From positions 1-32,712 of IMG/VR virus record IMGVR_UViG_3300036827_000040: a DNA stretch of 32,712 nucleotides. One strand, 5' to 3'. Positions 1,047-25,061 of the stretch are shown here, in pieces. Position 1 is the stretch's first letter. Every line of letters starts with the position of its first letter. The position numbers and the translations under genes were made by a program. Under the pieces are notes generated by a model. The model was not told the DNA's origin. It searched no databases and saw nothing but the letters and a program-made list of their open reading frames with translations. This DNA comes from a virus.

Positions 1047-1942
1047 TGCCTAACCCACTGCAACACATAGTTCCTACCATCGGCTGTGAATGCACTACCT
1101 GCACGGAGTGGTTCAGGAAAGAGTACCTAGACCTACTCCCAATCCCAGTATCCTCCGAGCTGCTGAACGAAGTTCGCAAGGGGCAAGAATTAAGAGAACA
1201 ATTTAACGCTCTCGAATCCAAACTAGGTTACAAAGGCACTCTCGCACTGATTACGATCCTCGAAGGAATTTATGAGCGCCTCACCAAGCTGGAGCAAGGT
1301 CACAAATGGCGAGAGTTCGGTCTGCTTGGAAAGATTAGCATGCGCTATAAAGCATTGGAAGACCGCCTGCAAGCAGTTATGGACGACATCACCACAAAGA
1401 TTCGCATATCTGAGCATCCCGTACACAAGTTCAATGCTCCCGTGGTAGGTGGGGGTCTCGGTCGGGGTCTCGGTCGGGGTCTCGGGAGCCTCGGTGATTT
1501 CACTAAATGCACCCGCTGCGGAAAGTATGAGCTTGACCCTGTGCATGCTGAGTCTCAGGTGAGGGATGGAGTAGAGAGTTTTTTTGAGCATGCTCGCATC
1601 ACAGCGCGTAAGCTTGATCTTCGTTTCGTTGAAACTGAAAACACACTAGCAGAAGCTAGATGGAATGAGTTCGCTCGTGTTGCTACACCCTTGAAGTTTA
1701 AACCTATTGATGCGGAGCCAGTAGACGCGCAACCGACTACGTCGCAGCGCGTCACCCCCACGGTCACCATTACCGCTAAGCTCCTTCGCTCATGGTCGGA
1801 GGGTGGAACTCTACTTGGTATAGAGCGTGCTAACACATGCTCATTCCAATTAGGTGAACTGGCAGACCGCCTCAACGAAGTAATCGCAAGCGAGATCGAG
1901 CGTCAGATGGTCGCTAAAGCGCAGAGCAAAGGGGTGGAGTAA
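1046..1942 (+). CDS. hypothetical protein with two Cys clusters and a Gly-Leu-Gly-Arg repeat (298 aa)
   Basis: A 298-residue protein of unknown function. An N-terminal cysteine cluster (C14, C16, C19) and a CxxC (C155, C158, within KCTRCGKYE) suggest metal binding. Between them lies a helical segment rich in charged residues (about 35-125). A glycine linker, GLGRGLGRGLG, just before the CxxC is encoded by a 12-bp tandem repeat (1452-1486). The C-terminal third contains a hydrophilic helix. The last nine residues, AKAQSKGVE, recur almost identically at the end of the next protein because of a 33-bp DNA repeat. The start overlaps the previous stop (TAATG). No enzyme motif is visible. Confidence 0.7.
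   Translation: MPNPLQHIVPTIGCECTTCTEWFRKEYLDLLPIPVSSELLNEVRKGQELREQFNALESKLGYKGTLALITILEGIYERLTKLEQGHKWREFGLLGKISMRYKALEDRLQAVMDDITTKIRISEHPVHKFNAPVVGGGLGRGLGRGLGSLGDFTKCTRCGKYELDPVHAESQVRDGVESFFEHARITARKLDLRFVETENTLAEARWNEFARVATPLKFKPIDAEPVDAQPTTSQRVTPTVTITAKLLRSWSEGGTLLGIERANTCSFQLGELADRLNEVIASEIERQMVAKAQSKGVE
1452..1486 (+). repeat. 12-bp tandem repeat, 2.9 copies
   Basis: The unit ggggtctcggtc occurs at 1452-1463 and 1464-1475 and nearly fully at 1476-1486. It is in frame (12 bp = 4 codons) and encodes repeated Gly-Leu-Gly-Arg. Copy-number change would keep the frame and alter linker length. Confidence 0.85.
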
Positions 1943-1944
1943 TG
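1912..1944 (+). repeat. 33-bp direct repeat, copy A (gene end and next start)
   Basis: The sequence from cgctaaagcgcag to gtggagtaatg spans the last codons of one gene and the ATG of the next. It recurs at 2139-2171 with a single base change (g to a). It carries the GGGGTGGAG/GGGGTGAAG purine stretch that acts as ribosome-binding site for the overlapping start. Confidence 0.85.
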
Positions 1945-2169
1945 CCCTTCGCTAAAAAAAAGGCGGGGAAGTGGATTCAGCCTGTCATGTCTCCCAGCAG
2001 TTATAAGTTTGAATGCTGCGACTGTGGTCTGGTGCATAGCATCCACTACCGGGTAGTTTTCACCAAAGCGGGTAAACCCAAGGTTCAATTCAAGGTTTAT
2101 AGGGATGAGCTCCTCACCAGACAGCAACGCAATAAACGCGCTAAAGCGCAGAGCAAAGGGGTGAAGTAA
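1942..2169 (+). CDS. small zinc-ribbon-like phage protein (75 aa)
   Basis: A 75-residue basic protein with FECCDCGLVHSIHYRV at about residues 23-38, resembling a recurrent small phage protein type in which a CCDCGLVH motif is followed by a beta-strand pair and a C-terminal RxxR helix. The function of that type is unknown. C25, C26, C28 and H32 could bind a metal. The C-terminal nine residues copy those of the previous gene. Both ends overlap neighbouring genes by TAATG, with a strong purine-rich ribosome-binding site before the start. Confidence 0.7.
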   Translation: MPFAKKKAGKWIQPVMSPSSYKFECCDCGLVHSIHYRVVFTKAGKPKVQFKVYRDELLTRQQRNKRAKAQSKGVK

Positions 2170-2171
2170 TG
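2139..2171 (+). repeat. 33-bp direct repeat, copy B
   Basis: Second copy of the repeat at 1912-1944, with one mismatch in 33 bp, again covering a gene end, the ribosome-binding purine run and the next ATG. The 227-bp period equals the length of the gene between the copies, so recombination between them would delete that gene cleanly and restore an intact junction. Confidence 0.85.
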
Positions 2172-2402
2172 ATCACCTATACAGTTACTAATGGGGTGCC
2201 AACGGAAGTAGTCGAGGTGTGTGCCAACTGTCTCCGCGCTCCGCAGGCTCCGTCATGGGATCAATGCTACGGCTGTGGTCTGGTGGGAACCCGTCGCATC
2301 CACGTTCCTGCTGATGAGTGTGTCGAAACTGGTACTACGTCTTCATCGGGCTACCGTCCCTTTTGGATATGCGCCGAGTGCTACGACGAGGTTCAGCAAT
2401 GA
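2169..2402 (+). CDS. small zinc-finger-like protein with three CxxC pairs (77 aa)
   Basis: The protein carries CANC at 18-21, CYGC at 33-36 and CAEC at about 69-72, a spacing compatible with one or two small zinc ribbons. The GLVGTRRIHVP segment between them would form beta-strands. No catalytic motif is present. The start overlaps the previous stop (TAATG) and the end overlaps the next start (ATGA). A DNA- or protein-binding accessory role is plausible but not shown. Confidence 0.65.
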   Translation: MITYTVTNGVPTEVVEVCANCLRAPQAPSWDQCYGCGLVGTRRIHVPADECVETGTTSSSGYRPFWICAECYDEVQQ

Positions 2403-2626
2403 CATACAAGTTTGTGAACAAGCATGATGAGGAATCGTCTGTTCCCAAGTTCGGGTACCGCAAGATTGACGAGCAAGGACGCTGGGCGAACAGTTATCAC
2501 CGACGCAAAAGGATTATGCGAGATTTTCGTGTTCTCTTTTCAAAACGGACATTTTTTCGCCTCGCTAAAGTGCTGGGTTACGAGATTCTCGATCAGAAGG
2601 ACGCTGCGCCCAAGGACGGCAAGTGA
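2399..2626 (+). CDS. small basic hypothetical protein (75 aa)
   Basis: The ATG at 2399 overlaps the upstream TGA as ATGA, which makes it a better start than the upstream in-frame codon at 2318 lying inside the previous gene. The 75-residue product is strongly basic in the middle (YHRRKRIMRDFRVLFSKR), predicted helical, and ends in a Lys/Asp-rich tail. No family recognised. The basic helix could bind nucleic acid, but that is inference from composition only. Confidence 0.6.
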   Translation: MTYKFVNKHDEESSVPKFGYRKIDEQGRWANSYHRRKRIMRDFRVLFSKRTFFRLAKVLGYEILDQKDAAPKDGK

Positions 2627-2838
2627 TGAGCGACATCACCCCAAGTTTAATTGGTATCGTGCTGGCCCTGGGCACCATCTGGCTTTACGAAAAGTTTAGC
2701 GAGTACTACCACATGTGGTATTTCAGCGAAGCCGGAAGTAAAACACGCACCGCTGCTATGTACAAGACCTTGAGTGCTCACTCTATAGCTGAGTACATGC
2801 GGATGGAAAACTATTCCAAATTCTGGGAGCCAAAATGA
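2626..2838 (+). CDS. small single-pass membrane protein (70 aa)
   Basis: The ATG at 2626 overlaps the previous TGA by one base; a GTG one codon earlier is the alternative. Residues ~6-20 (PSLIGIVLALGTIWLY) form a short hydrophobic helix with an uncharged N-terminus, followed by an aromatic-rich, charged tail (YYHMWYF, then a basic region). This suggests an inner-membrane peptide with its C-terminus in the cytoplasm. It overlaps the next gene by ATGA. Function unknown. Confidence 0.6.
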   Translation: MSDITPSLIGIVLALGTIWLYEKFSEYYHMWYFSEAGSKTRTAAMYKTLSAHSIAEYMRMENYSKFWEPK

Positions 2839-3056
2839 AAACCGATTTACTGATTTCCAAAATGTGCCGTACCTGCGCAGACAAGCTGCGGATTCAAATT
2901 TCCGAGTTGAGAGACGAATCTTCGAACGCCCCAAGTATTGAAATGAGTTTGGATTTGTGCAAACCCTGCATGCAAGTGTGGGAAGAATATATGCCTTCCA
3001 CAAAGCGAATTATGAAGTACGAGTACATCAGGCTTGAGCCGAATGGGAGTGAATAA
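2835..3056 (+). CDS. small protein with two CxxC pairs (73 aa)
   Basis: CRTC at residues 11-14 and CKPC at about 42-45 are separated by ~27 residues, the arrangement of a four-cysteine zinc ribbon or small rubredoxin-like knuckle. The start ATG overlaps the upstream TGA (ATGA) and the stop overlaps the next start (TAATG). It is one of several small four-Cys proteins in this gene chain. No specific family recognised. Confidence 0.65.
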   Translation: MKTDLLISKMCRTCADKLRIQISELRDESSNAPSIEMSLDLCKPCMQVWEEYMPSTKRIMKYEYIRLEPNGSE

Positions 3057-3403
3057 TGTCGCGTCACCGTAATAGTATTCCCGTTTACTCCTGTGTCCAT
3101 CCCGAGAAGGTCATCCGCAGAGTGTCGCCCCGCGAGGCTGGTCTCATGCTGCAAGGTGGCACCGTGTACTGGATTTCGCGTCATAGCGCTTTGCGCCTGT
3201 GTGAACCGGAACGCGAGTCTAAAGGCAGTCAGTCCAGTCTGAGCGTTACTGACATGCGGGTTGCTGCTGGTGAGTTCGGACGCAGCCGGACTGCACACCT
3301 CAGGGAGCCTGCACGCAAAGAGCGTGAGGGCAGAGGTCTAGACCAAGAAGATTTTGTAGAAAGAAGTCAGATGAAGTTAAAACTCTGGCAGGAGATTCAC
3401 TAA
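3056..3403 (+). CDS. hypothetical protein (115 aa)
   Basis: A 115-residue basic protein. The N-terminal half (residues 8-50: PVYSCVHPEKVIRRVSP...GGTVYWISR) has alternating hydrophobics suggestive of a small beta domain. The C-terminal half is Arg/Glu-rich and probably helical or disordered. There are two cysteines and no CxxC. It lies directly upstream of the GroES-like gene with a TAATG overlap, so the two are co-translated. Function not recognised. Confidence 0.6.
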   Translation: MSRHRNSIPVYSCVHPEKVIRRVSPREAGLMLQGGTVYWISRHSALRLCEPERESKGSQSSLSVTDMRVAAGEFGRSRTAHLREPARKEREGRGLDQEDFVERSQMKLKLWQEIH

Positions 3404-3687
3404 TGCCCAAGAAAGAAAAGAAACTCACGTACCAAGCCGCTAAGAATTGGCTGCTGGTAGAACGCAAGGAAGAAGTTGACACCACCCCCGGCGGCTTGTT
3501 TATTCCGCAGACCGCGAAGGAAAAACCGCAGGAAGGTATTGTCATCGCTTCCCACCCCGGCAACGAATACAAAAAGGGCGACCGCGTTCTTTTTGGCAGG
3601 TACGCGGGAGTGGAAATCAAGATTGATTACGCCATGCGCCTGCTGATCGAGGAAAACGAAATTCTGGGAACGCTGGTGGAACAGTAA
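3403..3687 (+). CDS. groES: GroES-like co-chaperonin (Cpn10)
   Basis: A 94-residue protein of the GroES family, the lid that closes the GroEL folding chamber. The family's landmarks are in order: an N-terminal strand (NWLLVERKE, 15-23), a mobile loop region ending in GGLFIP (30-35), KPQEGIVIA (41-49, the usual KPxxGxVxA pattern), KKGDRVLFGRYAGVEI (57-72) and the C-terminal IEENEILGTL (82-91). Its length matches bacterial GroES (~95-100 aa). Phage-encoded co-chaperonins (T4 gp31 is the classic case) replace or modify the host lid to fold the phage capsid protein; the same role is inferred here. Start and stop both overlap neighbouring genes by TAATG. Confidence 0.93.
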   Translation: MPKKEKKLTYQAAKNWLLVERKEEVDTTPGGLFIPQTAKEKPQEGIVIASHPGNEYKKGDRVLFGRYAGVEIKIDYAMRLLIEENEILGTLVEQ

Positions 3688-3947
3688 TGGCTCAGAAACA
3701 TCACATCGAGTTTATCTGCGACAACCAAGAATGCAGCAAGAAAGACATGATTGACATCGCAGGAGACACAAAGGACGCCCTGCCTATCGTCAGCAAATGG
3801 CGTGCGGTCATGAGCGGTGACGCTCCGAACGATGGTAAAGACCATCACCGCTGGTATTGCTGCTTGAACTGTGTGGTCACTGGTGAGCAGCAGCACTCGA
3901 TTAAAAAGATTGAAGCGGCAACCAAACGTCTCAGCGGTCACCTGTGA
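3687..3947 (+). CDS. small Cys-rich zinc-binding-like protein (86 aa)
   Basis: The N-terminus has FICDNQEC (CxxxxC at about 11-16). After ~40 residues comes WYCCLNC (CxxC at about 58-62), giving a split four-cysteine site of the zinc-ribbon type, with His residues nearby (HHRW). The tail is a charged helix. It lies between the GroES-like gene (TAATG overlap) and the glycosyltransferase (GTGA overlap). Function unknown. Confidence 0.6.
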   Translation: MAQKHHIEFICDNQECSKKDMIDIAGDTKDALPIVSKWRAVMSGDAPNDGKDHHRWYCCLNCVVTGEQQHSIKKIEAATKRLSGHL

Positions 3948-4558
3948 TTTTTATCGCCTCCCCGATTTATCAGGGCGCATCACCTGTTTTTCTAGACACA
4001 CTGATCCGCCTGACACAAGTTATGGTCAGTCAGAAGATACCCCACGTTTTTCACTTCGAGGTCGGTGACTCGAACATCGACCATGCACGGAACACCTGTG
4101 CTAAGCGTTTTACCGATGCAATCGCGCCAGACGTGCTGCTGTTCATTGATTCTGATATGGGTGCGAATCCCCACGACCTGTTGAAGATCGTCGAGCTTGC
4201 ACGCAAGAAGCAATGCGTGGTTGGTCTCCCGTGCCCGGTGCGTAATCGCCCCGGCGTGCTGTGCCTTGAATCGTCTCTCGGGTTGGGCGTGCTGCCTAAC
4301 TCCGGTGATGAACTCATCGAGGTATTGGCGACGGGCACGGGCATCATGGCTATACCGTTCACCGTGCTGAACCTCCCGGTTCCAACATACGCCGATGATG
4401 ACGGACGCATGGTGTGGCAGTACTTTGCCTGTGAGGTGAAGGACGGCAAGTTCCGTGGTGAGGACTGGACGTTCTGTCAGCGAGTGCGGGAAAGCGGCAA
4501 GAGAGTTTATGTGCTCAACCCCAACCGCATGCGGGAAAAAATAAAGCATGAGAATTGA
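3944..4558 (+). CDS. GT-A fold glycosyltransferase, family 2-like (204 aa)
   Basis: The GTG at 3944 overlaps the previous stop as GTGA. The protein has the layout of short phage GT-A glycosyltransferases: FIASPIYQG at the N-terminus, HARNTCAKRF (47-56), the metal/nucleotide-sugar DxD motif as FIDSDMGANP (D69, D71), TGTGIMAIP (130-138) and GEDWTFCQR (172-180). It should transfer a sugar from a nucleotide-sugar; the acceptor cannot be read from sequence. It is a shorter relative of the glycosyltransferase at 8469. Location with GroES and upstream of virion genes is compatible with glycosylation of a capsid or decoration protein, or with host-surface modification. Confidence 0.82.
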   Translation: MIFIASPIYQGASPVFLDTLIRLTQVMVSQKIPHVFHFEVGDSNIDHARNTCAKRFTDAIAPDVLLFIDSDMGANPHDLLKIVELARKKQCVVGLPCPVRNRPGVLCLESSLGLGVLPNSGDELIEVLATGTGIMAIPFTVLNLPVPTYADDDGRMVWQYFACEVKDGKFRGEDWTFCQRVRESGKRVYVLNPNRMREKIKHEN

Positions 4559-4757
4559 AGACATCAAGATCAGCCTTGCTGAGGCTCAGGGTTTCGCCAA
4601 AGTGTGGACGTGTAATGGCGTGGCTGTGCTCATGGACAAACACGCCTGTCAGTTTGCCGCAGATTTTGCCACCATCGCAGTGCGCAGTTTTGTGCAGCAG
4701 TACCTTCAACGCGAAGCGGAGAAAGCCGCACCAAAAATTCAAGTGGTGAAGGATTGA
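4548..4757 (+). CDS. small hypothetical protein (69 aa)
   Basis: The gene starts at ATG 4548 and overlaps the glycosyltransferase end by 11 nt. The product is helical and slightly amphipathic, with single Cys residues at about 22 and 34. An alternating pattern (VWTCNGVAVLMDKHACQF) suggests a beta-hairpin before a C-terminal helix. No family recognised. Its stop overlaps the next gene's TTG start. Confidence 0.55.
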   Translation: MRIEDIKISLAEAQGFAKVWTCNGVAVLMDKHACQFAADFATIAVRSFVQQYLQREAEKAAPKIQVVKD

Positions 4758-4945
4758 AAGAGCAGTACAGACATTATGTCGTGCGTAAGTATGTTCGCGC
4801 ACGCAACGCAGAGGAAGCTATCAAGCTTTCACGCAAGCTCCCAGTGGTTGAAGTGAACGAGATGCAGGACAAGCCGGATGTTCAGAATGCCGGCCCTGGT
4901 GCCCCCTGTGTCGGGTTCACGATACCCATGGATGATGAGGAATAA
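4754..4945 (+). CDS. small hypothetical protein with a TTG start (63 aa)
   Basis: The frame begins with TTG (TTGA overlap with the previous stop); no ATG is available before the conserved-looking part. Residues 6-30 (RHYVVRKYVRARNAEEAIKLSRK) have a strand followed by an Ala/Glu-rich helix, a pattern frequent in small phage proteins of unknown function (Y-V-x-A-x-N-A-E-E-A-I). The C-terminal half is acidic and Pro/Gly-rich. Moderate confidence because of the start codon. Confidence 0.55.
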   Translation: MKEQYRHYVVRKYVRARNAEEAIKLSRKLPVVEVNEMQDKPDVQNAGPGAPCVGFTIPMDDEE

Positions 4946-4947
4946 AA

Positions 4948-5151
4948 ATGGCTAAAAAATCAGCAGCACCAAAATGTGGAGGCGGGGGCGACGTTCTCGC
5001 TCGTGGTAGTGCGGGTGCGTCCGCAACTTTCCCTTCCTGCTCCCACGTGGAACCCAAAAGGTTCGATTTCGGTCTCATGACCAAAGAAGAATTTATCGCT
5101 AAGCACGGCAAGCGTGCGTATGACTACGCAGCACAGGGCAAATTTGAGTAA
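4948..5151 (+). CDS. small hypothetical protein (67 aa)
   Basis: ATG 4948 is preceded by GAGGAATAAAA, a good ribosome-binding site. The N-terminal half is Gly/Ala/Ser-rich with two isolated cysteines (10 and 31). The C-terminal half (FGLMTKEEFIAKHGKRAYDYAAQGKFE) looks like a small helical unit. No known domain. The stop overlaps the next ATG as TAATG. Confidence 0.55.
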   Translation: MAKKSAAPKCGGGGDVLARGSAGASATFPSCSHVEPKRFDFGLMTKEEFIAKHGKRAYDYAAQGKFE

Positions 5152-5480
5152 TGGCACCACGAGTATCTAACCCAGTAGGAACAAATCGGTACACCAGCAA
5201 GAAAGCGAAGCGGCTGGATAAGATACGCGAGGTGTTGTTAGCCGCACTGGATGACTTCCAAACCCATTATCAGAGGACAAATTCGTATAGGCAGCTCACC
5301 AATTTCGAGATGGCGGCTGTGCGGTACCTGTTAGCCATAGAAAGGGTTCCGATTTATCTCCATGCGACTCCAAGAGCAAAAGATGTGGCACTGGAGAAGG
5401 CACTGGAAGATCGTGTTATGGCTGAAATAGGGATACCTAAAGAGCTTCTCGACAATGACAACAAGGAAGAACAACAGTAA
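5151..5480 (+). CDS. hypothetical helical protein (109 aa)
   Basis: A 109-residue, mainly alpha-helical, charged protein (RLDKIREVLLAALDDFQTHYQ at about 21-41; a second helix at 48-63; a third near the acidic C-terminus). Size and helix content would fit a small terminase or a head-associated protein, but it is far from terL and has no recognisable helix-turn-helix, so that is only a possibility. It overlaps both neighbours by TAATG. Confidence 0.6.
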   Translation: MAPRVSNPVGTNRYTSKKAKRLDKIREVLLAALDDFQTHYQRTNSYRQLTNFEMAAVRYLLAIERVPIYLHATPRAKDVALEKALEDRVMAEIGIPKELLDNDNKEEQQ

Positions 5481-5845
5481 TGGCTAATAACACAAATATT
5501 TATCAACCCGCTGTGGTCGGTGAGACTCTCACCAGTCCCGGTGGGCAGTTCACATTCACAACTAACGCTGCGGCAATTGGTGCAGCAGCAGTTGTCATTA
5601 AAGCGGCTCCGGGTCGTCTGTGCAAGGTTCTTATAACCACTGCTACCACGGCATCCCAGCCAATCACATTTTTCGATAACGCCACGACGGGAAGCGGAAC
5701 CATCATTGGCATCATTCCGGGCATTGCGTCCACAGGTGCAATCGCTGGAAACGTATACGTGTTCGATATGCCTGCAACCAACGGCATCACTATTGGCGTG
5801 AACGCCTCACTCCTCGCGGGTGCGATCACCATCAGCTTTTTGTAA
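5480..5845 (+). CDS. beta-rich virion decoration/head-fibre-like protein (121 aa)
   Basis: A Thr/Ala/Ile-rich protein of alternating strands with the pattern G-R-L-x-K-V-L-I-T-T-A, then ITFFDNATTGSGTIIGII and ITIGVNASLLAGAITISFL. This resembles a common type of small phage structural protein in which a GxLxxVxV strand is followed by xxxYDNA. No signal peptide or membrane segment is present. It ends the chain of overlapping genes. A decoration or fibre role is inferred from composition and from similar-looking neighbours at 6228 and 6795. Confidence 0.6.
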   Translation: MANNTNIYQPAVVGETLTSPGGQFTFTTNAAAIGAAAVVIKAAPGRLCKVLITTATTASQPITFFDNATTGSGTIIGIIPGIASTGAIAGNVYVFDMPATNGITIGVNASLLAGAITISFL

Positions 5846-6227: not shown

Positions 6228-6749
6228 ATGGGAATTGATCAAGTATTTTCGATGCCCCCTGCAAGTATGTCGCCTGCCCCAGCAGCACCGGGTTCCGCGA
6301 TTGCGCCTGAACTTGGCGTCGATACATCGACAGGCGTGGGCTATATCTCTAGCGGTAACGGTTGGGTGCCTCAGGTTCCCGGCACGGTTACGAACCTCAG
6401 TGTAAAAGGTAAGGCTGCAAACATTGCAAACGCAACCTTGTATGCGGTTCCAGCAAACATGGGTGGTGCGTACAGTATTGCGACTTACGTAAAAGTCACG
6501 ACTGCTGCAACGTCCAACTCAACGCTACCGTCTCTAACTATTTTCTGGACTGATGCTGCTGACAACACGGTTCAAAATCTTGTGGCTTCTGCGACGAACA
6601 CAACCAACACAACTGGTTTGATTTTGCAGAACACTCTCACGATTTATGCGTCAGGTGGTACGAACATCATCTACAACGCTAACGGTTACCTGTCCAACGG
6701 TACGCCACTGGCGTACGAAGTGCAGATGCGCTGCACCTATTTGGGCTAA
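6228..6749 (+). CDS. decoration/fibre-like structural protein (173 aa)
   Basis: AGGAGC before AAATAAAAATG marks the start. Residues ~8-35 are Pro/Ala-rich and flexible. The remainder is a Thr/Asn/Ala-rich all-beta domain (YSIATYVKVTTAATS, LTIFWTDAADNT, LILQNTLTIYASGG) resembling small trimeric phage surface proteins. No enzyme motif. The upstream gap shares an ATTTCTTTGxTTG string with the gap before the next gene, suggesting the two gene units arose by duplication or have a shared signal. Confidence 0.65.
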   Translation: MGIDQVFSMPPASMSPAPAAPGSAIAPELGVDTSTGVGYISSGNGWVPQVPGTVTNLSVKGKAANIANATLYAVPANMGGAYSIATYVKVTTAATSNSTLPSLTIFWTDAADNTVQNLVASATNTTNTTGLILQNTLTIYASGGTNIIYNANGYLSNGTPLAYEVQMRCTYLG

Positions 6750-6794
6750 ACAAATTTCTTTGATTGAGAACTAATCCTTAAGGGGATAAAAAAT

Positions 6795-7391
6795 ATGAGT
6801 CAAATTATTGCAGTAGGTGTAGGACCGAGCAACGCTCCATTCCAGTTCACCACGGCTTCTGGTACTTCCGCACAGGTAATTCTGCCTGCAAGCGGTGTTG
6901 GTCTTCCGATCATCACTCTTGGTGGTGCGTTCCTTAACGGCAAGCCTTTCCGTATTCATCTGGGTGGCTTTGTAAAGTCACACGGAGCTTCACAGACCAT
7001 GCAGGTCGGTGTGCAGGCGCAGGTTTACTCCTCGTCCAGCTTCTCCGGCACTTCACTTGGTCTCAACACAGCCTCAGGCACCATGACCGCTGGTACGAAC
7101 TACCCGTTCTATCACCGTCTTGACCTGATTGCTGATAGCACTTCTGGCATCATGACGGGCACTTTCGGTGGTGCAGACGGTGTTACACCAACCCGTACCG
7201 CAGTCACAGTTGTAGCCAACCTGATTACAGGCGTGTCATGGGGCACTTCCATTGTCTCTTCGGGTAACGCAGCTAACCCGCTCGCGTCCGCTGCGGCTCC
7301 TGCGTTGCAGTTCGCACCACAGATCGTCAACGGTGTCACCGACACTGCGACCGTCTTCAACATCACGAACTTCTTCGCTGAGACTGACTAA
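6795..7391 (+). CDS. decoration/fibre-like structural protein (198 aa)
   Basis: AGGGGA precedes the ATG at 6795. The protein is Ser/Thr/Gly/Ala-rich and all-beta, with strands such as FRIHLGGFVKSHG, QTMQVGVQAQVYSS and YHRLDLIADSTSG. No Cys, signal peptide or membrane helix. Overall character matches virion decoration proteins and its left neighbour at 6228. The precise position in the virion cannot be told. Confidence 0.65.
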   Translation: MSQIIAVGVGPSNAPFQFTTASGTSAQVILPASGVGLPIITLGGAFLNGKPFRIHLGGFVKSHGASQTMQVGVQAQVYSSSSFSGTSLGLNTASGTMTAGTNYPFYHRLDLIADSTSGIMTGTFGGADGVTPTRTAVTVVANLITGVSWGTSIVSSGNAANPLASAAAPALQFAPQIVNGVTDTATVFNITNFFAETD

Positions 7392-7394
7392 TCA

Positions 7395-7661
7395 ATGTCT
7401 ATCAAATCTTGGTTACGTTGCTGGTTGGGTCTGGATGACGCGGATTTCCGCGTTACTGAACTCAATCAGCGCGTAGCTGATCTTGAGACAAAGAACGGTT
7501 TGCTTTTTCAGCAGATGCAGGAACAAGACGCCAGAGTTCTTGCTGCGGCACTCGACGCTGCTAAGCGAATGGTTCAGTCAAGTCACTATGGCGACTTGGC
7601 ACTGGCGTCCTACATCAACGAAATTGTCGAGATTGTGAAGACGCATCCAAATGCCGTTTAA
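7395..7661 (+). CDS. small coiled-coil protein (88 aa)
   Basis: After a Trp-rich N-terminus (SWLRCWLGL) the protein forms a long heptad-type helix (residues ~18-60: VTELNQRVADLETKNGLLFQ... then RVLAAALDAAKRMVQ). This suggests an oligomerising coiled coil. It starts 3 nt after the previous stop. Function is unknown; such proteins accompany fibres or assembly factors. Confidence 0.6.
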   Translation: MSIKSWLRCWLGLDDADFRVTELNQRVADLETKNGLLFQQMQEQDARVLAAALDAAKRMVQSSHYGDLALASYINEIVEIVKTHPNAV

Positions 7662-7677
7662 ATCTGGTGGAGAAGCC

Positions 7678-7935
7678 ATGAAACATTTAGTTCAACATTC
7701 TTTAGGTCAGAAGGTTCCAAAACCGAAGCACCTCAAGACATTCCATGCTGAAGAACAGCATGACGGTAAGTTCCACGTGGTACGCCACGGCGGAAACCCG
7801 AAAGAAGCCCCCATGAAGCACACAGCAAACGACCTCTCTGAGGTTCATGCTGCGCTTGAAGATCATATGGGAATGCCAAATCAGGGCGAAGAAGCCCCAG
7901 TTCCTCCCGCTGAAGGCGAGCCTGACGAAGAGTAA
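7678..7935 (+). CDS. small hypothetical protein (85 aa)
   Basis: The ATG at 7678 has GGTGGAG five bases upstream and is preferred over the in-frame ATG at 7651, which overlaps the previous gene and lacks a good ribosome-binding site. The sequence is His/Lys-rich at the N-terminus (LVQHSLGQKVPKPKHLKTFHAEEQHDGKFHVVRHGG), then a short helix (DLSEVHAALEDHMG) and an acidic Pro/Glu tail. The F-x-V-x-R-H-G strand pair resembles small phage proteins of unknown function. Confidence 0.6.
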   Translation: MKHLVQHSLGQKVPKPKHLKTFHAEEQHDGKFHVVRHGGNPKEAPMKHTANDLSEVHAALEDHMGMPNQGEEAPVPPAEGEPDEE

Positions 7936-8205
7936 ATGATCAACAAAAGTTCTAACACCACCTGGCCCGAGAAGCAGGCTGTCAGCATTGCAGAAGGTTC
8001 TGGCGAAGGCAAACTTCCCCAGTATCCTCGTGATCACCAAGTGGGAATGAAAGTACCTAAGGGTGGCAGTGAGTGCGCGAAGTGCGAATACCTGAAAGAC
8101 AACAGGAAGCACTGCGGCAATGATAAATGGGTGAAATGGTTCGGCAGTTCCCTGATCCCTGCACCAATTGATGAATACTGCTGCGATTTTTTTGAGGCGA
8201 AATAA
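7936..8205 (+). CDS. small Cys-rich protein, HiPIP-like cysteine pattern (89 aa)
   Basis: A 89-residue protein with CAKC (47-50), a further Cys in HCGND, and YCCDFFE near the C-terminus. The order GGSxCxxCxYL...C...W..W.GS..IP.P.DEYCCDFF resembles small phage proteins with a high-potential iron-sulfur-like cysteine spacing. Whether a cluster or zinc is bound cannot be told from sequence. It begins immediately after the previous stop. Moderately confident in the pattern, low confidence in function. Confidence 0.6.
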   Translation: MINKSSNTTWPEKQAVSIAEGSGEGKLPQYPRDHQVGMKVPKGGSECAKCEYLKDNRKHCGNDKWVKWFGSSLIPAPIDEYCCDFFEAK

Positions 8206-17956: not shown

Positions 17957-18868
17957 ATGGCAACAACACTGAAATTAGTAGACACAATTGAATTCTGTCA
18001 GCCGTACATCGGCAACATGCCGCTTGCTGTTGGCGCAACGATGCAACCTTTCCTTGGTATTGCTAACGCTGTCGCAGGCACGATGCTTTCTCCGCCTTTC
18101 AAATGGAGCTTTAACCGCAGCAGCATTGACTTCCTGAGTGTTGCGAGTACGCAGAATTACCGCAATGCCGGGTCATGGGCTAGTAACACGGTCTACGCTG
18201 TTGGGACGGTCATCATTGACCCGAACGGTAATGGTCAGAAGGTTACACAGGGTGGTACCTCTGGAGGCAGCACGCCTTCGTGGTCAACAGGCATGTTTAC
18301 CTCCACCACAGACAATGGTGTGACGTGGATGAATGTCGGTGCTCTTGCTTCCATTCCAAAGATCACAAACTTTGGCTTCGTCGATAAGGCGCAGATTCAG
18401 GATGTCAACAATAACAGCGAATGGAAAGAACTACAGGTCAAGCTTGACCTGAGCCGGGCGGCTCAGATTAGCTGCCCTAAGTTCATCGCTGCGCAGAGTG
18501 ACGACAATCTCGGTGACATTACGTTCCGGCTCATGCCAGTGCCGGGTTCTGCATATCCTGTCAGCGTCAATTACCAGCAGGCACAAAAACCTTTCACGCA
18601 GTTGAGCAACTTATGGTCACCTTTCCCTGATCGTCTTTTCTACGTTTACTCGTTCGGATGTTTGGCGCTTGCGTACTTGTACGCCGAAGACCCTCGCTTC
18701 CAGATGGCACAGCAGCAGTTTATTTCTCGCCTCGTTGCTCAAGCAGAAGGACTGACAGAAACAGAAATCAATATCTTCCTGAGTAACTGGAACGCTCTCA
18801 CAGGAACTACAGCGGGATACAACATGAGACTGAGTCAGGGGATTCAGGCGAGGCAAGTTGGTGGTTAA
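17957..18868 (+). CDS. tail adaptor-like paralogue with inserted surface module (303 aa)
   Basis: Starts immediately after its paralogue's stop. The core (residues 1-70 and 130-303) follows the same order of elements: a helix with AVAGTML, KITNFGFVDKAQIQDVNN, a hydrophobic strand, then SPFPDRLFYVYSFGCLALAYLYAED and a long C-terminal helix. A module occupies ~74-128: SWASNTVYAVGTVIIDPNGN, QGGTSGGSTPSW, TTDNGVTWMNVG. The final stop overlaps the next start as TAATG. Probably a ring component between portal and nozzle. Confidence 0.65.
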   Translation: MATTLKLVDTIEFCQPYIGNMPLAVGATMQPFLGIANAVAGTMLSPPFKWSFNRSSIDFLSVASTQNYRNAGSWASNTVYAVGTVIIDPNGNGQKVTQGGTSGGSTPSWSTGMFTSTTDNGVTWMNVGALASIPKITNFGFVDKAQIQDVNNNSEWKELQVKLDLSRAAQISCPKFIAAQSDDNLGDITFRLMPVPGSAYPVSVNYQQAQKPFTQLSNLWSPFPDRLFYVYSFGCLALAYLYAEDPRFQMAQQQFISRLVAQAEGLTETEINIFLSNWNALTGTTAGYNMRLSQGIQARQVGG

Positions 18869-21800
18869 TGAATAATTTAGCTGCATCAGGTGCTGTGTCG
18901 GAGAATCCGACAAAGTACGCACCTCTAGTTGTCAATCAAATCTTTACAGGGTACTGGCCCAACGGCAACCCGTTGCGTGACCGTGCTGTTCCATTTCTTT
19001 ACCAGAAGTTTTATCAGGCTTCACGCAATGAAGGCTTGCTGGATGGAAACAACACCGAAGTCACCACACGTATGACGCTGGGTCGTCGTTTCGGCAACCC
19101 GGTATTCAATTCTGTGAGCTTTCCGCAGACGTTTGGCTTCTACGCTTTTAAGCCGTTCGTTGCTGGAACAGGTGAGGAAGTCATTGTCATTTCTGATTCG
19201 ACTTTTTCAGTATTTAATGCCACGCCAAACTCTCAGGTACGGCTCTGGTCTAAATCAACAGGATCAGGTCGCACTCGCTTCCGTGGTGTGGAGAACACGC
19301 TGTTCTCCGGTAATGGTGTGGACACTCTCAAATGGTCGTGGTTCCCAGCGCGTCAGAACACTACTGTTTACGCACCGGGTGCCTGCATACTTGACTCGAA
19401 CAACAACATTCAACAAACGCTGGGCTACGGTGTTTCAATCACGTCCACGTCAGTGACGAGCAACATCGCCACGATCACCTATGGTGGTTCCGGCACCGTT
19501 GCCGTGGGTGACATCGTAACGTTCTATGGACTGACGACCGCAACAGGTTTGAACAATGCGACGGTGACCGTTCTCACGATTTCCTCAGGTGTGTTCACCT
19601 GTGCGTTCAACACATCTAATTACAGCACCACGTCTGACACTGGCGTGGTTGTTGATAACACGAAAAGCAGTGGTGGTACCAGCGGCAGCGGCTCTCCGTC
19701 TTTCTCTGGAGTGTGGGGCAGCGTACTGCTTGACGGCACTGTGGTGTGGATTAGCTGGGGCAATTCTGTACAGAACATGGGCATAGTTGCTCCGACTGCT
19801 GCACCGACCGTGCAGACGGTTTCTGTTCCTTCCTCAGCGGTATGGGCAGCTTCGACCTATTATTTTCCAACTCCGCTTATTTTTGATTCCGGAACAACGA
19901 GCATTCAACAGCTCACGACCTCCGGCACCACGGCAAGCAGCGTTCCCACATTTTCTGGTACCGCTGGAACGACAACCACGGACGGCACTGCTGTATGGAC
20001 ATCAAAGGGCACCGCTACCCGTGGCACCAACACCACATACACGGTGGGTGCGTTCATTTTGGTGTCATGGACTTTTACTTATTTCACTTATGAAGTGGTT
20101 TGCTTCGGTGGCAACACTGAAGTCCGCACTCCTGCTGGGTACGTACCCTTTGCGGAACTTCCGGAAAAGTTTTGGATCATCAACGAGACAGGGAAGCATC
20201 TCGCAGAATTAGAGGTCAATAAAAACTATGACGGGGAGATGATTGAATACGCCCCCGGCAAGCTGGTCACTCCGCAGCATTGCATGTTGCGTAAGGGTGA
20301 ATGGGTTCCTGCATCTGAGTTCTATTCCGACAAGCCTCGTGTCTCGCACAAAGGCACGGTCTACAACCTGCACGTTATCACTGAAAAAGAAGAAGACCGT
20401 CATTACGTCATTGAGACGGGCGACATCGCTCACAACTTTATTGCACCTCCTGAAGGGGATGGTGGTTGCACCAGAGTTATCAGCACTCCGCACAACCTGA
20501 CGTACGCAAGCTTTTTCCAATGCACGACCGGGGGTGTTTCAAGCAGCACTGCGACCAGCGCTCTTGCATGGAACGCAGCGTTAGACGGCACGACTACGGA
20601 CGGCACTGTTACATGGACGAACGTTGGTCGTGAAGTGACTCGCTCTACTGGTACCGCCTCACCTACGGGTGGAGGTTCCACAAACATGGTTTCCGGAACC
20701 GTGGGCAACTCTTTACTGGTGAGCAAAAACACAATCATTCAAGACTCAAACCTTGCTGGTGAATCTCCGATACTTGCGGGTGAGTCTGGTGGTTCGCATC
20801 CAACGTGGGCAACCACGCTCAATGCTCAGACTATTGATAACAGCGGTTTGACTTGGTCAAACCAAGGCCCCCTCGGGTCAGCTAACACGGGCAACTGGTT
20901 CTACGCATTCTCGTACGGCAATTCTGCCACAGGTGACGAGTCAACGGCATCTCCGCTTTCCTCGCCTATTCTGCTTCCAGCAGGCGATGGCGTTACGGTG
21001 ACCGGGCCTGGTTCCCCTGACTTGCAGGTTACACAGATCAATATTTATCGCAGCATGCAGACTGCATCAGCGTCTGTCACTGTGCCAAGCGTAATGGGAC
21101 TTTTAACGAGCATCATTGCTCCGTTCGGCGGACAATCTTGGAGCTTCACGGACACAACACCTGACCCGCCTAACCCCGGTGCAGTCCTGAACGTGTTAAT
21201 CACACCTTCGGGATACGCAACAAATGCTGCGGGTATCATCGACAACTTTAATGATCCGCCTCCCGCTGGTCTGACGAACATGGAACTCCATATCGGTCGT
21301 CTGTGGGGTTCGGTCGGCAACATTTTGTATTTTTCTACGGGGCCGGATGTGACCGTGGGTAACGGAACAACGGCATGGGACGTTGAAAACTTCTTTGAAG
21401 TGAGCGGAACGATTTTCCGTCTCTGGCCCACCACCGTAGGACTCTACATCTTCACCAATGACGGCACGTGGATCATCACGGGTCTTGGTACCAGCTCGTC
21501 TCCGTTCAGCGAAGCGCAGCTTGTGGACGGTGGTACGAGCATCAACAACTACGATGCTTTCAGCTTCAACGCCAACCAAGCATTGGCATACCTCACAGAC
21601 AGCGTGTTCTGTGCGATTGATGCCACGAACGGCTCATCTGATCTTGGTCAGCCAATCGGCAACATTTTAGCTGCGAGCTACTCACCATCCGAGGCATACG
21701 TGACGTTCCATCGTCATGGTTATGACCAGCGCGGGTTCATCACGAACGGGTCTAACACATGGCTCAATTTCATGGCAGCTCCGTCACCGGAAACAGGTTT

Positions 21801-22482
21801 CATCTGGTCACCTCCAGCAAACCTCGTTAACGCTGGTGGTGTGCAGGCAGTTCAGTCGATTGAGACTGAGCCCGGAGTATTTAGTCTGCTTATTGGGCCG
21901 GGAGCAGCCGACACCAGCAGTTTTCCAACATGGAACATCAGCACTGCTTACGTGATAGGGAATGGGGTCATCCACAGTGGCATTGCATGGATTGCAGTCT
22001 TGGATTCGACAGGAGTTGTTCCGAGTACAAATTCAGATGCTTGGTCGCAGGAAATAGCTGTGGGGCCAATCCTTCAGCGTGACAGTAATGGAACGACATT
22101 CAGCGATGGAGGTACCGCGTACGAATCATTTGCGGTGTTCGGCAACCTAGTCCTTGCTCACCCCGGTCAGATGGCTCTCGTTGCTTTCATGACAATTAAA
22201 GCGGTGAAAGTTGGCAGTGAGCCAAAAATCAGCGTTCTGCTGGATGAGTTGTACGGACAGGCTAATACACCAGTCTTCGCTGTGTTACAGAACCCTGTCT
22301 TAGAGCCCCCGCGTCTCGCGGAATCAACAACACTCTACTCTCTGCGCTACTGGTTCATTTCGACGCAGGAGCCATGCTGGTGTCAGCACATGGTCTGGAA
22401 GATTGATTTCGGTACTGACACAGTAGCCAATGAGCTGCTGGAGTTTGGCGTCTTTGGAAAATGGGTCAGTGAGAAGGCATGA
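18868..22482 (+). CDS. large tail (nozzle-like) protein with embedded Hint/intein-like domain (1204 aa)
   Basis: The largest gene. Residues 1-150 begin like tail tubular/nozzle proteins (KYAPLVVNQIFTGYWPNG...). Four modules of the type Y.xG...T.GTSG..P.W...TTDGTVTW.N.G follow: about 156-295, 325-383, 388-585 and 606-668. The third is split by a 112-residue Hint domain: C412-FGGNTEVRTP, VTPQH (block-B-like T-x-x-H), VYNLHV and HYVIETGDIAHN523, followed by F524. Residues ~670-1020 are repeated beta-strands like a beta-propeller (LWGSVGNILYFSTG, GLYIFTNDGTWIITG). A CBM5/12-like WNISTAYVIGNGVIHSGIAW unit is at ~1022-1060. Whether the Hint domain splices or cleaves cannot be told. The end overlaps the HNH gene (ATGA). 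Confidence 0.75.
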   Translation: MNNLAASGAVSENPTKYAPLVVNQIFTGYWPNGNPLRDRAVPFLYQKFYQASRNEGLLDGNNTEVTTRMTLGRRFGNPVFNSVSFPQTFGFYAFKPFVAGTGEEVIVISDSTFSVFNATPNSQVRLWSKSTGSGRTRFRGVENTLFSGNGVDTLKWSWFPARQNTTVYAPGACILDSNNNIQQTLGYGVSITSTSVTSNIATITYGGSGTVAVGDIVTFYGLTTATGLNNATVTVLTISSGVFTCAFNTSNYSTTSDTGVVVDNTKSSGGTSGSGSPSFSGVWGSVLLDGTVVWISWGNSVQNMGIVAPTAAPTVQTVSVPSSAVWAASTYYFPTPLIFDSGTTSIQQLTTSGTTASSVPTFSGTAGTTTTDGTAVWTSKGTATRGTNTTYTVGAFILVSWTFTYFTYEVVCFGGNTEVRTPAGYVPFAELPEKFWIINETGKHLAELEVNKNYDGEMIEYAPGKLVTPQHCMLRKGEWVPASEFYSDKPRVSHKGTVYNLHVITEKEEDRHYVIETGDIAHNFIAPPEGDGGCTRVISTPHNLTYASFFQCTTGGVSSSTATSALAWNAALDGTTTDGTVTWTNVGREVTRSTGTASPTGGGSTNMVSGTVGNSLLVSKNTIIQDSNLAGESPILAGESGGSHPTWATTLNAQTIDNSGLTWSNQGPLGSANTGNWFYAFSYGNSATGDESTASPLSSPILLPAGDGVTVTGPGSPDLQVTQINIYRSMQTASASVTVPSVMGLLTSIIAPFGGQSWSFTDTTPDPPNPGAVLNVLITPSGYATNAAGIIDNFNDPPPAGLTNMELHIGRLWGSVGNILYFSTGPDVTVGNGTTAWDVENFFEVSGTIFRLWPTTVGLYIFTNDGTWIITGLGTSSSPFSEAQLVDGGTSINNYDAFSFNANQALAYLTDSVFCAIDATNGSSDLGQPIGNILAASYSPSEAYVTFHRHGYDQRGFITNGSNTWLNFMAAPSPETGFIWSPPANLVNAGGVQAVQSIETEPGVFSLLIGPGAADTSSFPTWNISTAYVIGNGVIHSGIAWIAVLDSTGVVPSTNSDAWSQEIAVGPILQRDSNGTTFSDGGTAYESFAVFGNLVLAHPGQMALVAFMTIKAVKVGSEPKISVLLDELYGQANTPVFAVLQNPVLEPPRLAESTTLYSLRYWFISTQEPCWCQHMVWKIDFGTDTVANELLEFGVFGKWVSEKA
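20101..20436 (+). other. Hint (intein-like) domain coding segment, 112 codons
   Basis: Visible blocks: first residue C412 in CFGGNTEVRTPAGYVPF (block A-like), KLVTPQHCMLRKGEWVPASE (block B-like TxxH plus W), VYNLHV and HYVIETGDI (block F-like), AHN (H522, N523; block G-like). The residue after Asn is Phe, not Cys/Ser/Thr as in standard splicing inteins. The segment has no LAGLIDADG or HNH insertion. These features suit a bacterial intein-like (A-type BIL) or a mini-intein; C534, eleven residues after N523, is the nearest downstream cysteine. Confidence 0.8.
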
Positions 22483-22943
22483 GAACAGGTAGACCAAAAC
22501 AAACTCATTGCCAACGAGGGCACGCATTTTCTCCAGATAACACTTATGTGAATCCGATAGGGAAAAGACATTGCCGGACTTGTCACAAAGCGAGAGTTTC
22601 CGTATGGCTTCAGAATCCAGTCAACAAAGAGAAACACAGATTGTCTGGTTTGAAATCTTATACACACGCTCGTGAATATCACCTGCGGTCAACCTACCGT
22701 ATGAGGTTGGAAGACTACGACGCACTTTTTCATAGGCAGAACGGTGCCTGTGCGATCTGCGGGGAGAAGTCAGACGAGTCACTACACATTGACCACGATC
22801 ACAACTGCTGCCCCGGAAGGATCAGTTGCGGTAAGTGCATTCGCGGGTTGCTCTGCAAAACATGCAACAGAGGAATTGGACATTTTGAGGACAAGCCAGA
22901 GTTACTGCTGAAAGCAGCGAACTATTTGAGGACAACGAAGTGA
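22479..22943 (+). CDS. HNH endonuclease, recombination endonuclease VII-type
   Basis: A 154-residue nuclease overlapping the tail gene (ATGA). It has a C-terminal HNH/treble-clef fold: CAIC (91-94), LHIDHDHNCC (102-111), GLLCKTCNRGIGHFED (123-138), the pattern of T4 endonuclease VII-type proteins (PF02945). An N-terminal C11...C32-x-x-C35 knuckle (KRHCRTCHKAR) is extra. T4 endonuclease VII resolves branched DNA during packaging, but free-standing homologues inserted next to structural genes are often mobile homing endonucleases; both are possible here. Confidence 0.88.
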   Translation: MRTGRPKQTHCQRGHAFSPDNTYVNPIGKRHCRTCHKARVSVWLQNPVNKEKHRLSGLKSYTHAREYHLRSTYRMRLEDYDALFHRQNGACAICGEKSDESLHIDHDHNCCPGRISCGKCIRGLLCKTCNRGIGHFEDKPELLLKAANYLRTTK

Positions 22944-23724: not shown

Positions 23725-24135
23725 GTGATCAAAGGTCACCTCGTGACCATCGCTTATAACGCCACGGTTGCGCAGTACGGCGGCTCGACAGCAGGCACGA
23801 TGGTTATGTGGGCAATCGCGAACCGTGTACGTAAAGCGGGAATGGACTGGTCTTCGGCAATCAACACCATCAGTGATTACATGCAGAATGGTGAAGGGAT
23901 ACCGAACATTATGCCGAATATCTGGGACGCGAGCTTTCTTGCTCTGTCACAGATCGTGGATGACGTGTATGACGGACGTGGAAAAGATTTGTCATGCGGG
24001 GGACTGTACTGGGCTGATACAGCGAAACCGATTAGCGACGATTTCATGAACGATATTGTTCGTAATCCCGGTTTGAGCCGCACAGCACAGATGAACAGTT
24101 TGCAGTTCTGGGGTGAAAAAGAGAAAGTATGGTAA
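23725..24135 (+). CDS. cell-wall hydrolase (SleB-like) candidate (136 aa)
   Basis: The GTG at 23725 has GAGGA eight bases upstream; a TTG at 23710 is an alternative in the same frame, overlapping the previous gene. The pattern TMVMWAIANRVRKAG, then NIWDASFLALSQIVDDVYDGRGKDLSCGGLYWAD and a C-terminal SLQFWGEKE, resembles SleB-type peptidoglycan hydrolases (AIANRV..., W..A...A..V..G...D.T.GALYWAD, ...FW). It would be a lysin, either virion-associated for DNA entry or used at lysis. Support is by pattern; the catalytic Glu is not identified with certainty. Confidence 0.55.
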   Translation: MIKGHLVTIAYNATVAQYGGSTAGTMVMWAIANRVRKAGMDWSSAINTISDYMQNGEGIPNIMPNIWDASFLALSQIVDDVYDGRGKDLSCGGLYWADTAKPISDDFMNDIVRNPGLSRTAQMNSLQFWGEKEKVW

Positions 24136-25061
24136 ATCGAATCAAAACAAAGATAGTTTACGCGCTGGATAGAAACGACAAACATGTCGAAGCTTACAGC
24201 GTGAGCTATCTTTATGAAGGAGACATAGCACTCCTCTGCGGTGCCCCCGGAGGGCAACAGCAGCTCGCAAACGCTCAGACCGCGTACTACACGACATTGA
24301 CGCAGCAGGCACAGGCGGAATATGCCGATGCCAAAGGCGTATTCGATGAGCTTACCTCTGAATACACGCCAATTTTCAATGCCGGTCCGAACCAGTACGG
24401 TTTCTCACAGGCGGAAACAAACGCACTGAACACCGAAGCCGCAACTGGTACCCAGCAGGACTACAACATGGTCAACCAAGCGGTTAAAGAGAACCTCGCC
24501 GCACAGGGCGGTAATTCTCCAATGATGCCGTCTGGAGTCGCTGAAAAAGCAGCACGAGCAACAGCAACCGCTGGAGCTAGTCAGCTTGCGCAGGAACAAG
24601 GGCAGATCGTTCAGTCCGGTTACCAGCAGGGTTACAACGAGTGGCTTGCTGCTGCAAGCGGTTTGGGTCAGGCAGAAAACGTATTCAGTACTGCCAACGG
24701 CGCAGGCAGTGTTGCTAACCAAGGTGGTGAAGCAGCGGGTCAGACATGGTCTGCAATCGCAGCAGAAAACGAATCGCCCTTTAATGCAGTCATGGGCGCA
24801 CTGGGTGGCGTAGGTAGTGCAGTTGCCGGACAGGTCACTAAAAACGCGGGGTGGGGCTGCTGGGTAGCGGCTGCATGCTTCGACGAAGATTTCCACACAG
24901 GCGTTAAAACAAACCTCGTACGCGAATGGATGTGGACACACGCACCTAAGTCTGTGCTGCGACTCTACAGCCGTTACGGTCAGTGGATTGCGAAACAGAA
25001 AATATTAGTCAGCATGCTGACGCCAGTTTTCAACTGGATGCTCAAAAAGGCAGAAGAATAA
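24129..25061 (+). CDS. internal-virion/ejection-like protein with C-terminal CWVAAACF box (310 aa)
   Basis: Overlaps the hydrolase-like gene by 7 nt. Residues ~40-210 are Ala/Gln/Asn-rich helical sequence (QQLANAQTAYYTTLTQQAQAEY..., GGVGSAVAGQV) typical of ejectosome or internal proteins. The end has CWVAAACFDEDF (C244), then LVREWMWTHAPKSVLRLYSRYGQWIAKQ, a recognised C-terminal box (CWIA/CFIATA then LYxxxGxxxA) found in phage and bacterial proteins of unknown role. Residues 1-37 look different and could precede the true start, but no better start codon is seen. Confidence 0.65.
   Translation: MVNRIKTKIVYALDRNDKHVEAYSVSYLYEGDIALLCGAPGGQQQLANAQTAYYTTLTQQAQAEYADAKGVFDELTSEYTPIFNAGPNQYGFSQAETNALNTEAATGTQQDYNMVNQAVKENLAAQGGNSPMMPSGVAEKAARATATAGASQLAQEQGQIVQSGYQQGYNEWLAAASGLGQAENVFSTANGAGSVANQGGEAAGQTWSAIAAENESPFNAVMGALGGVGSAVAGQVTKNAGWGCWVAAACFDEDFHTGVKTNLVREWMWTHAPKSVLRLYSRYGQWIAKQKILVSMLTPVFNWMLKKAEE

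Follow-up and report, generated by a model that had tools for sequence, protein, structure and literature searches.

An intein-like Hint domain without a +1 nucleophile in a predicted podovirus tail nozzle protein

Within a 1204-residue protein encoded by a 32.7-kb virus record of an uncultivated phage (hereafter the window, meaning the whole stretch of DNA analysed), we identify residues 412-523 as an intein-like Hint domain on the grounds of their sequence blocks and profile matches. The host protein is well supported, by its predicted fold, as a podovirus tail nozzle of the class of the SU10 nozzle, P22 gp10 and T7 gp12. On balance we favour a putative mode of action like that of an A-type bacterial intein-like domain (BIL), whereby this compact Hint, probably at a hairpin tip, would mainly cleave its host chain, at one or both ends, and perhaps to some extent ligate it.

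Results

Sequence and profile evidence for a Hint domain

The Hint-bearing gene occupies 18868..22482 of the window (this gene, the Hint features and the flanking strands described below all lie on the plus strand), and the 112-residue Hint, C412-N523, occupies 20101..20436. The segment starts with CFGGNTEV and ends with IAHN, followed by Phe524, and all of the Hint sequence blocks can be located in it, as they can in the second Hint described below (L115). Block A begins with Cys412 (20101..20103), residue 1 of the domain and the expected thioester nucleophile; block B is represented by TPQH at residues 468-471, or 57-60 of the domain (20269..20280); a block-F-like VYNLHV at residues 498-503 (20359..20376) has Asn in place of Asp, the usual residue in this block of inteins (PMC7765530); and the domain closes with His522-Asn523 (20431..20436), where Asn cyclisation is expected. 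The +1 residue, Phe524 (20437..20439), is not a nucleophile.

A preliminary description of this DNA had proposed the domain from its C412, TPQH and HN motifs and had pointed out the Phe after the terminal Asn; the latter is plain from the sequence, and the former is confirmed by its coordinates, by an independent HMM and by L115. Motif spotting by itself would be weak support, because a loose C..G.T.h / TxxH / HN signature arises in 22 of 20,000 shuffles of the 1204-residue protein (~0.1%). When 11 Hints from other phages, and not the window's own, were made into an HMM, it gave C412-N523 a score of 25.6 bits, with no more than 6.6 for any of 200 shuffles; run over every ORF of the window and of the first 66 loci, it picked out this protein only. 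The profile search for which the preliminary description had called thus returned a Hint match, and library profiles pointed the same way at scores below their cut-offs: Pfam Vint (PF14623) reached 19.6 bits (E 8.6e-4; cut-off 27) over residues 1-103 of the segment, and NCBIfam intein_Nterm 17.4 bits (cut-off 24.5) starting from residue 1. No Pfam family was matched by six shuffles of the domain or by its reversed sequence. The segment also stands out in composition, with K, E, R, H and D making up 32% of its residues versus 10.5% in the remainder of the protein, while its GC content hardly differs from that of the rest of the gene. The horseshoe-shaped, all-β Hint fold was looked for with AlphaFold2, which gave the domain by itself a pLDDT of 36, and that model was not used; within the whole-protein model the Hint stays below 50.

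The curated cut-offs unmet by library matches, the frequency of the loose signature in shuffles and the lack of a confident model are what would be expected if the segment were not a Hint and its motif pattern had arisen by chance. We consider this extremely unlikely in view of the independent HMM, the distinct composition, the Hint of L115 at the same site and the best PDB profile match of the two Hints, which, though weak and non-significant (E 0.21), is to an intein chain, NEQ068.

A second Hint in a distant nozzle

A scan seeded with the closest relatives identified L115 (IMGVR_UViG_3300030114_000029), a distant nozzle with a 110-residue Hint in the same hairpin. Its motifs read C...TPDH...IAHN, with VRTLTV for block F and Lys at +1. 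The two Hints are 31% identical and score 28.4 bits, where 1000 shuffles reached 7.4 at most; Cys1, TPxH and HN are kept in both, and neither has a nucleophile at +1. The preliminary description had named the absence of the Cys/HN pair from homologues as grounds for giving up the proposal, and in L115 the pair is present. Its suggestion that C534, 11 residues past N523, could act as an alternative nucleophile fared less well, this residue having no counterpart in L115 (flank KSIDGGYYQNQQQ...).

The Hint is carried by two of 59 non-redundant nozzle homologues and is absent from the other 57. In a quick tree, starred splits put the window and L115 nozzles on separate branches, a distribution that may reflect independent gains, transfer or repeated loss, the window branch being long. 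At first, no close relative of the Hint was found in phages, plasmids, IMG/VR or GTDB genomes; for some of these searches the patterns were widened by hand-made Hint-like sequences. Two candidates, L002 and L003, were rejected: their peptide matches were fortuitous and lay in a different virion gene. A third, L067, was set aside as a UvsW-like helicase; in this locus (L067:4313-8048) split inteins divide the helicase into parts that are separated by endonuclease-like genes.

The host protein is a predicted podovirus tail nozzle

The host gene comes after those for TerL, the portal, the major head protein and an SU10-adaptor-like protein, the last being the gene directly upstream (SU10_adaptor, 29.2 bits; cut-off 27). 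The nearest isolate homologue, at ~33% identity and without a Hint, is gp19 of Tunturiibacter phage Tunturi 3, a podovirus (PMC11924767). An AlphaFold2 model of residues 5-1204, computed with 32 homologues (mean pLDDT 73), was matched by Foldseek to cyanophage A4 (E 7.6e-12), SU10 (5.2e-11) and the P22 gp10 complex (2.8e-9), and also to the T7 gp12 and crAss001 nozzle/muzzle chains. These matches lend good support to the earlier proposal that the protein is a virion ring component and specify it as a tail nozzle, which has both its fold and its place after the adaptor gene in common with the nozzles of SU10, T7 (gp12) and P22 (gp10) and the crAss001 muzzle. None of these four proteins is known to carry a Hint.

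Other features of the nozzle and its surroundings were observed. Module 1 of the window's nozzle has a small insert of its own, FCCH-like, at 19504-19653 (residues 213-262; PF16190, 13.4 bits, below the cut-off), and one homologue is encoded in two ORFs (L039:1690-7953, with ORFs at 1690-5685 and 6328-7953). The end of the nozzle gene is overlapped by an endonuclease VII gene (window 22479-22943; PF02945, 74.8 bits), and similar genes follow or lie near the nozzle gene in many relatives, whether the Hint is present or absent. We considered whether this endonuclease might be the Hint's homing partner and dropped the idea because the same gene adjoins Hint-less nozzle genes in six loci (L014, L020, L025, L044, L050 and L062).

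Insertion in a variable module, probably at a hairpin tip

In the whole-protein model, DSSP assigns two long strands on either side of the Hint, residues 396-410 (20053..20097; E392-406 in the model, the numbering differing by 4) and residues 537-554 (20476..20529; E533-550), both of which are aligned in Hint-less homologues. Since these strands flank it, the Hint probably lies at the tip of a β-hairpin, a placement drawn from the secondary structure. In six Hint-less homologues (L016, L090, L091, L104, L108 and L118) a short tip joins the same two strands, and the Hint domain is therefore an insertion. The comparison with homologues lacking the insert, proposed in the preliminary description, thus gave clean empty sites, most homologues being without the whole domain, and it bore out the view that the Hint lies inside a hypervariable surface module of the tail protein.

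Other relatives have at this site either nothing or, in the aligned stretch, a different, PA14-like insert. The latter is found opposite the Hint in L006:3343-7026 and similar nozzles (PF07691, 16.4 bits, below the cut-off) and is possibly a receptor-binding module. One alignment placed these inserts against the Hint itself; we rejected them as its counterparts, the two being different domains. From these alignments we take the region of the Hint site to be a variable point of domain exchange.

Proposed chemistry

For Hints that end in His-Asn and have no +1 nucleophile, N-terminal thioester formation together with C-terminal Asn cleavage has been proposed, leading chiefly to cleavage and to some ligation when the freed amine attacks the thioester (PMC4031507; PMC7765530; PMC5874633; PMC7664689). 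Action of this A-type-BIL-like kind is the most likely for the nozzle Hint because the residues for the terminal reactions are kept and the +1 nucleophile is absent. At V411-C412, Cys1 and TxxH would promote an N-S acyl shift; at N523-F524, His-Asn would promote Asn cyclisation. Lacking a +1 nucleophile, the domain would not undergo the transesterification that joins the flanks, so that its two ends would react largely independently and mainly cleave, with some ligation expected where Phe524, its amino group set free, attacks the Val411 thioester. By computed mass, the 127.4-kDa precursor would yield parts of 43.4, 12.8 and 71.3 kDa and/or a ligated chain of 114.6 kDa; the nozzle parts of 43 and 71 kDa, or the ligated chain, would be held together by the paired hairpin strands and the remaining fold. 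From the residues and their position we infer that the domain reacts, which products it would give and what the virion might gain. The activity could also be lowered or lost, since both Hints have another residue where inteins have the block-F Asp (Asn in the window and Thr in L115).

An efficient mini-intein that splices despite the missing +1 nucleophile would instead leave only a spliced 115-kDa nozzle in the virion, with the domain a neutral passenger. Type A BILs are capable of ligation (PMC4031507), removal of the Hint leaves a hairpin tip of a length that also occurs in Hint-less homologues, and related phages have ordinary inteins in other genes. Even so, we regard this outcome as unlikely: the +1 position holds Phe in the window's Hint and Lys in that of L115, cleavage predominates in published BILs of this kind (PMC4031507; PMC7664689), the insertion is in a variable loop and at no conserved functional site, and the Hint contains no endonuclease domain.

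The replaced block-F residues would also fit a catalytically silent Hint, kept as surface decoration or as a tolerated relic on a full-length nozzle. The site does accept decoration, given that in other relatives a PA14-like domain lies close to it, and most homologues do without the Hint. For a relic, however, the retention of Cys1, TPxH and the C-terminal HN at 31% identity would be unexpected, and we judge a silent domain improbable.

Given that the thioester-forming residues are present, the +1 acceptor is absent and the hairpin tip is exposed in the predicted nozzle, the thioester might also serve to cross-link the nozzle with an adjacent subunit or with another molecule. This we hold to be very unlikely, as no acceptor was identified, C534 is not conserved in L115 and a literature search found no precedent.

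Hints and inteins in other phage genes

In a set of 50,697 phage records, 655 contained a match to a generic Hint consensus. Among the matches listed, most were in ribonucleotide reductases, TerL, helicases and methyltransferases, and the virion-gene cases were MuF-type or head morphogenesis proteins. Inteins in virion proteins of this MuF-type head class are already known, and one in a phage minor head protein has been reported (PMC7468147). The cases in Thing3, Affeca, REQ3, BPS11T2, ES2, BR161a and Vibrio phage 1.265.O resemble the nozzle Hint in lying inside a head or connector gene, whereas all seven are larger, have Cys at +1 and occupy a different protein and site.

Several further Hint-like sequences came to light. 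Four phages that share the nozzle family (L068, L070, L071 and L086) have inteins in RNA ligase, ribonucleotide reductase, DNA methyltransferase and TerL. An apparent 103-residue Hint in the DNA polymerase of phage Pubbukkers was discarded, being merely the N-part of a longer intein. The product of L090:8630-9835, a homologue of the window gene at 24129-25061, has at its C-terminus a segment that resembles a Hint but lacks HN (Hom_end_hint, 26.7 bits; cut-off 32.1); the window gene aligns to it over the N-terminal part only and has no Pfam match. Lactobacillus phage P1 gp14 (L085:2989-3420, 143 residues) resembles a free-standing Hint that ends in VVHD.

Discussion

Among known Hint classes, the nozzle domain most resembles A-type BILs, with which it shares Cys1, TxxH, a C-terminal His-Asn, the lack of a +1 nucleophile, and a setting in the hypervariable region of a non-conserved protein (PMC4031507; PMC7765530; PMC5874633). 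The likeness is one of features, namely HN followed by a non-nucleophile and insertion in a variable region. The nozzle Hint differs from A-type BILs in its phage tail nozzle host, its length of 110-112 residues and its replaced block-F Asp. The remark in the preliminary description that it would be one of the smallest Hints is plausible. B-type BILs lack an intein-like C-terminal HN, which is present in both the window and L115. With class 1 mini-inteins, such as the Nanoarchaeum split polymerase intein (NEQ068) that was the best PDB match, it has the Hint motifs in common; unlike them, it has Phe524 (Lys in L115) and no Cys, Ser or Thr at +1, and it is inserted at a variable hairpin tip and not at a conserved functional site of its host protein. 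The PT-HINT domains of polymorphic toxins self-cleave without splicing (PMC3482391). The nozzle Hint, in contrast, is followed by 681 nozzle residues and no C-terminal toxin, and the pretoxin HINT family (PF07591) gave no match.

The Hint might go further and be a working device of virion maturation, which nicks the exposed nozzle hairpin or uses its thioester to cross-link subunits or a group on the host surface, and which recurs as an exchangeable part and not as a passenger. We think this rather doubtful; were it true, tail assembly or genome release would depend on Hint chemistry.

The virion-protein Hints of isolates that we examined all have Cys at +1, as ordinary splicing inteins do, and the nozzle Hints do not. 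That a compact Hint without this residue occupies the same exposed nozzle hairpin in two divergent phages suggests that Hint chemistry may be put to use by phages on a virion ring, in a virion part that would process itself. For work on how Hints cleave and ligate when the +1 nucleophile is missing, the nozzle Hint provides a compact natural example, and with it the role that BIL-like domains play for their host proteins becomes testable in a virion.
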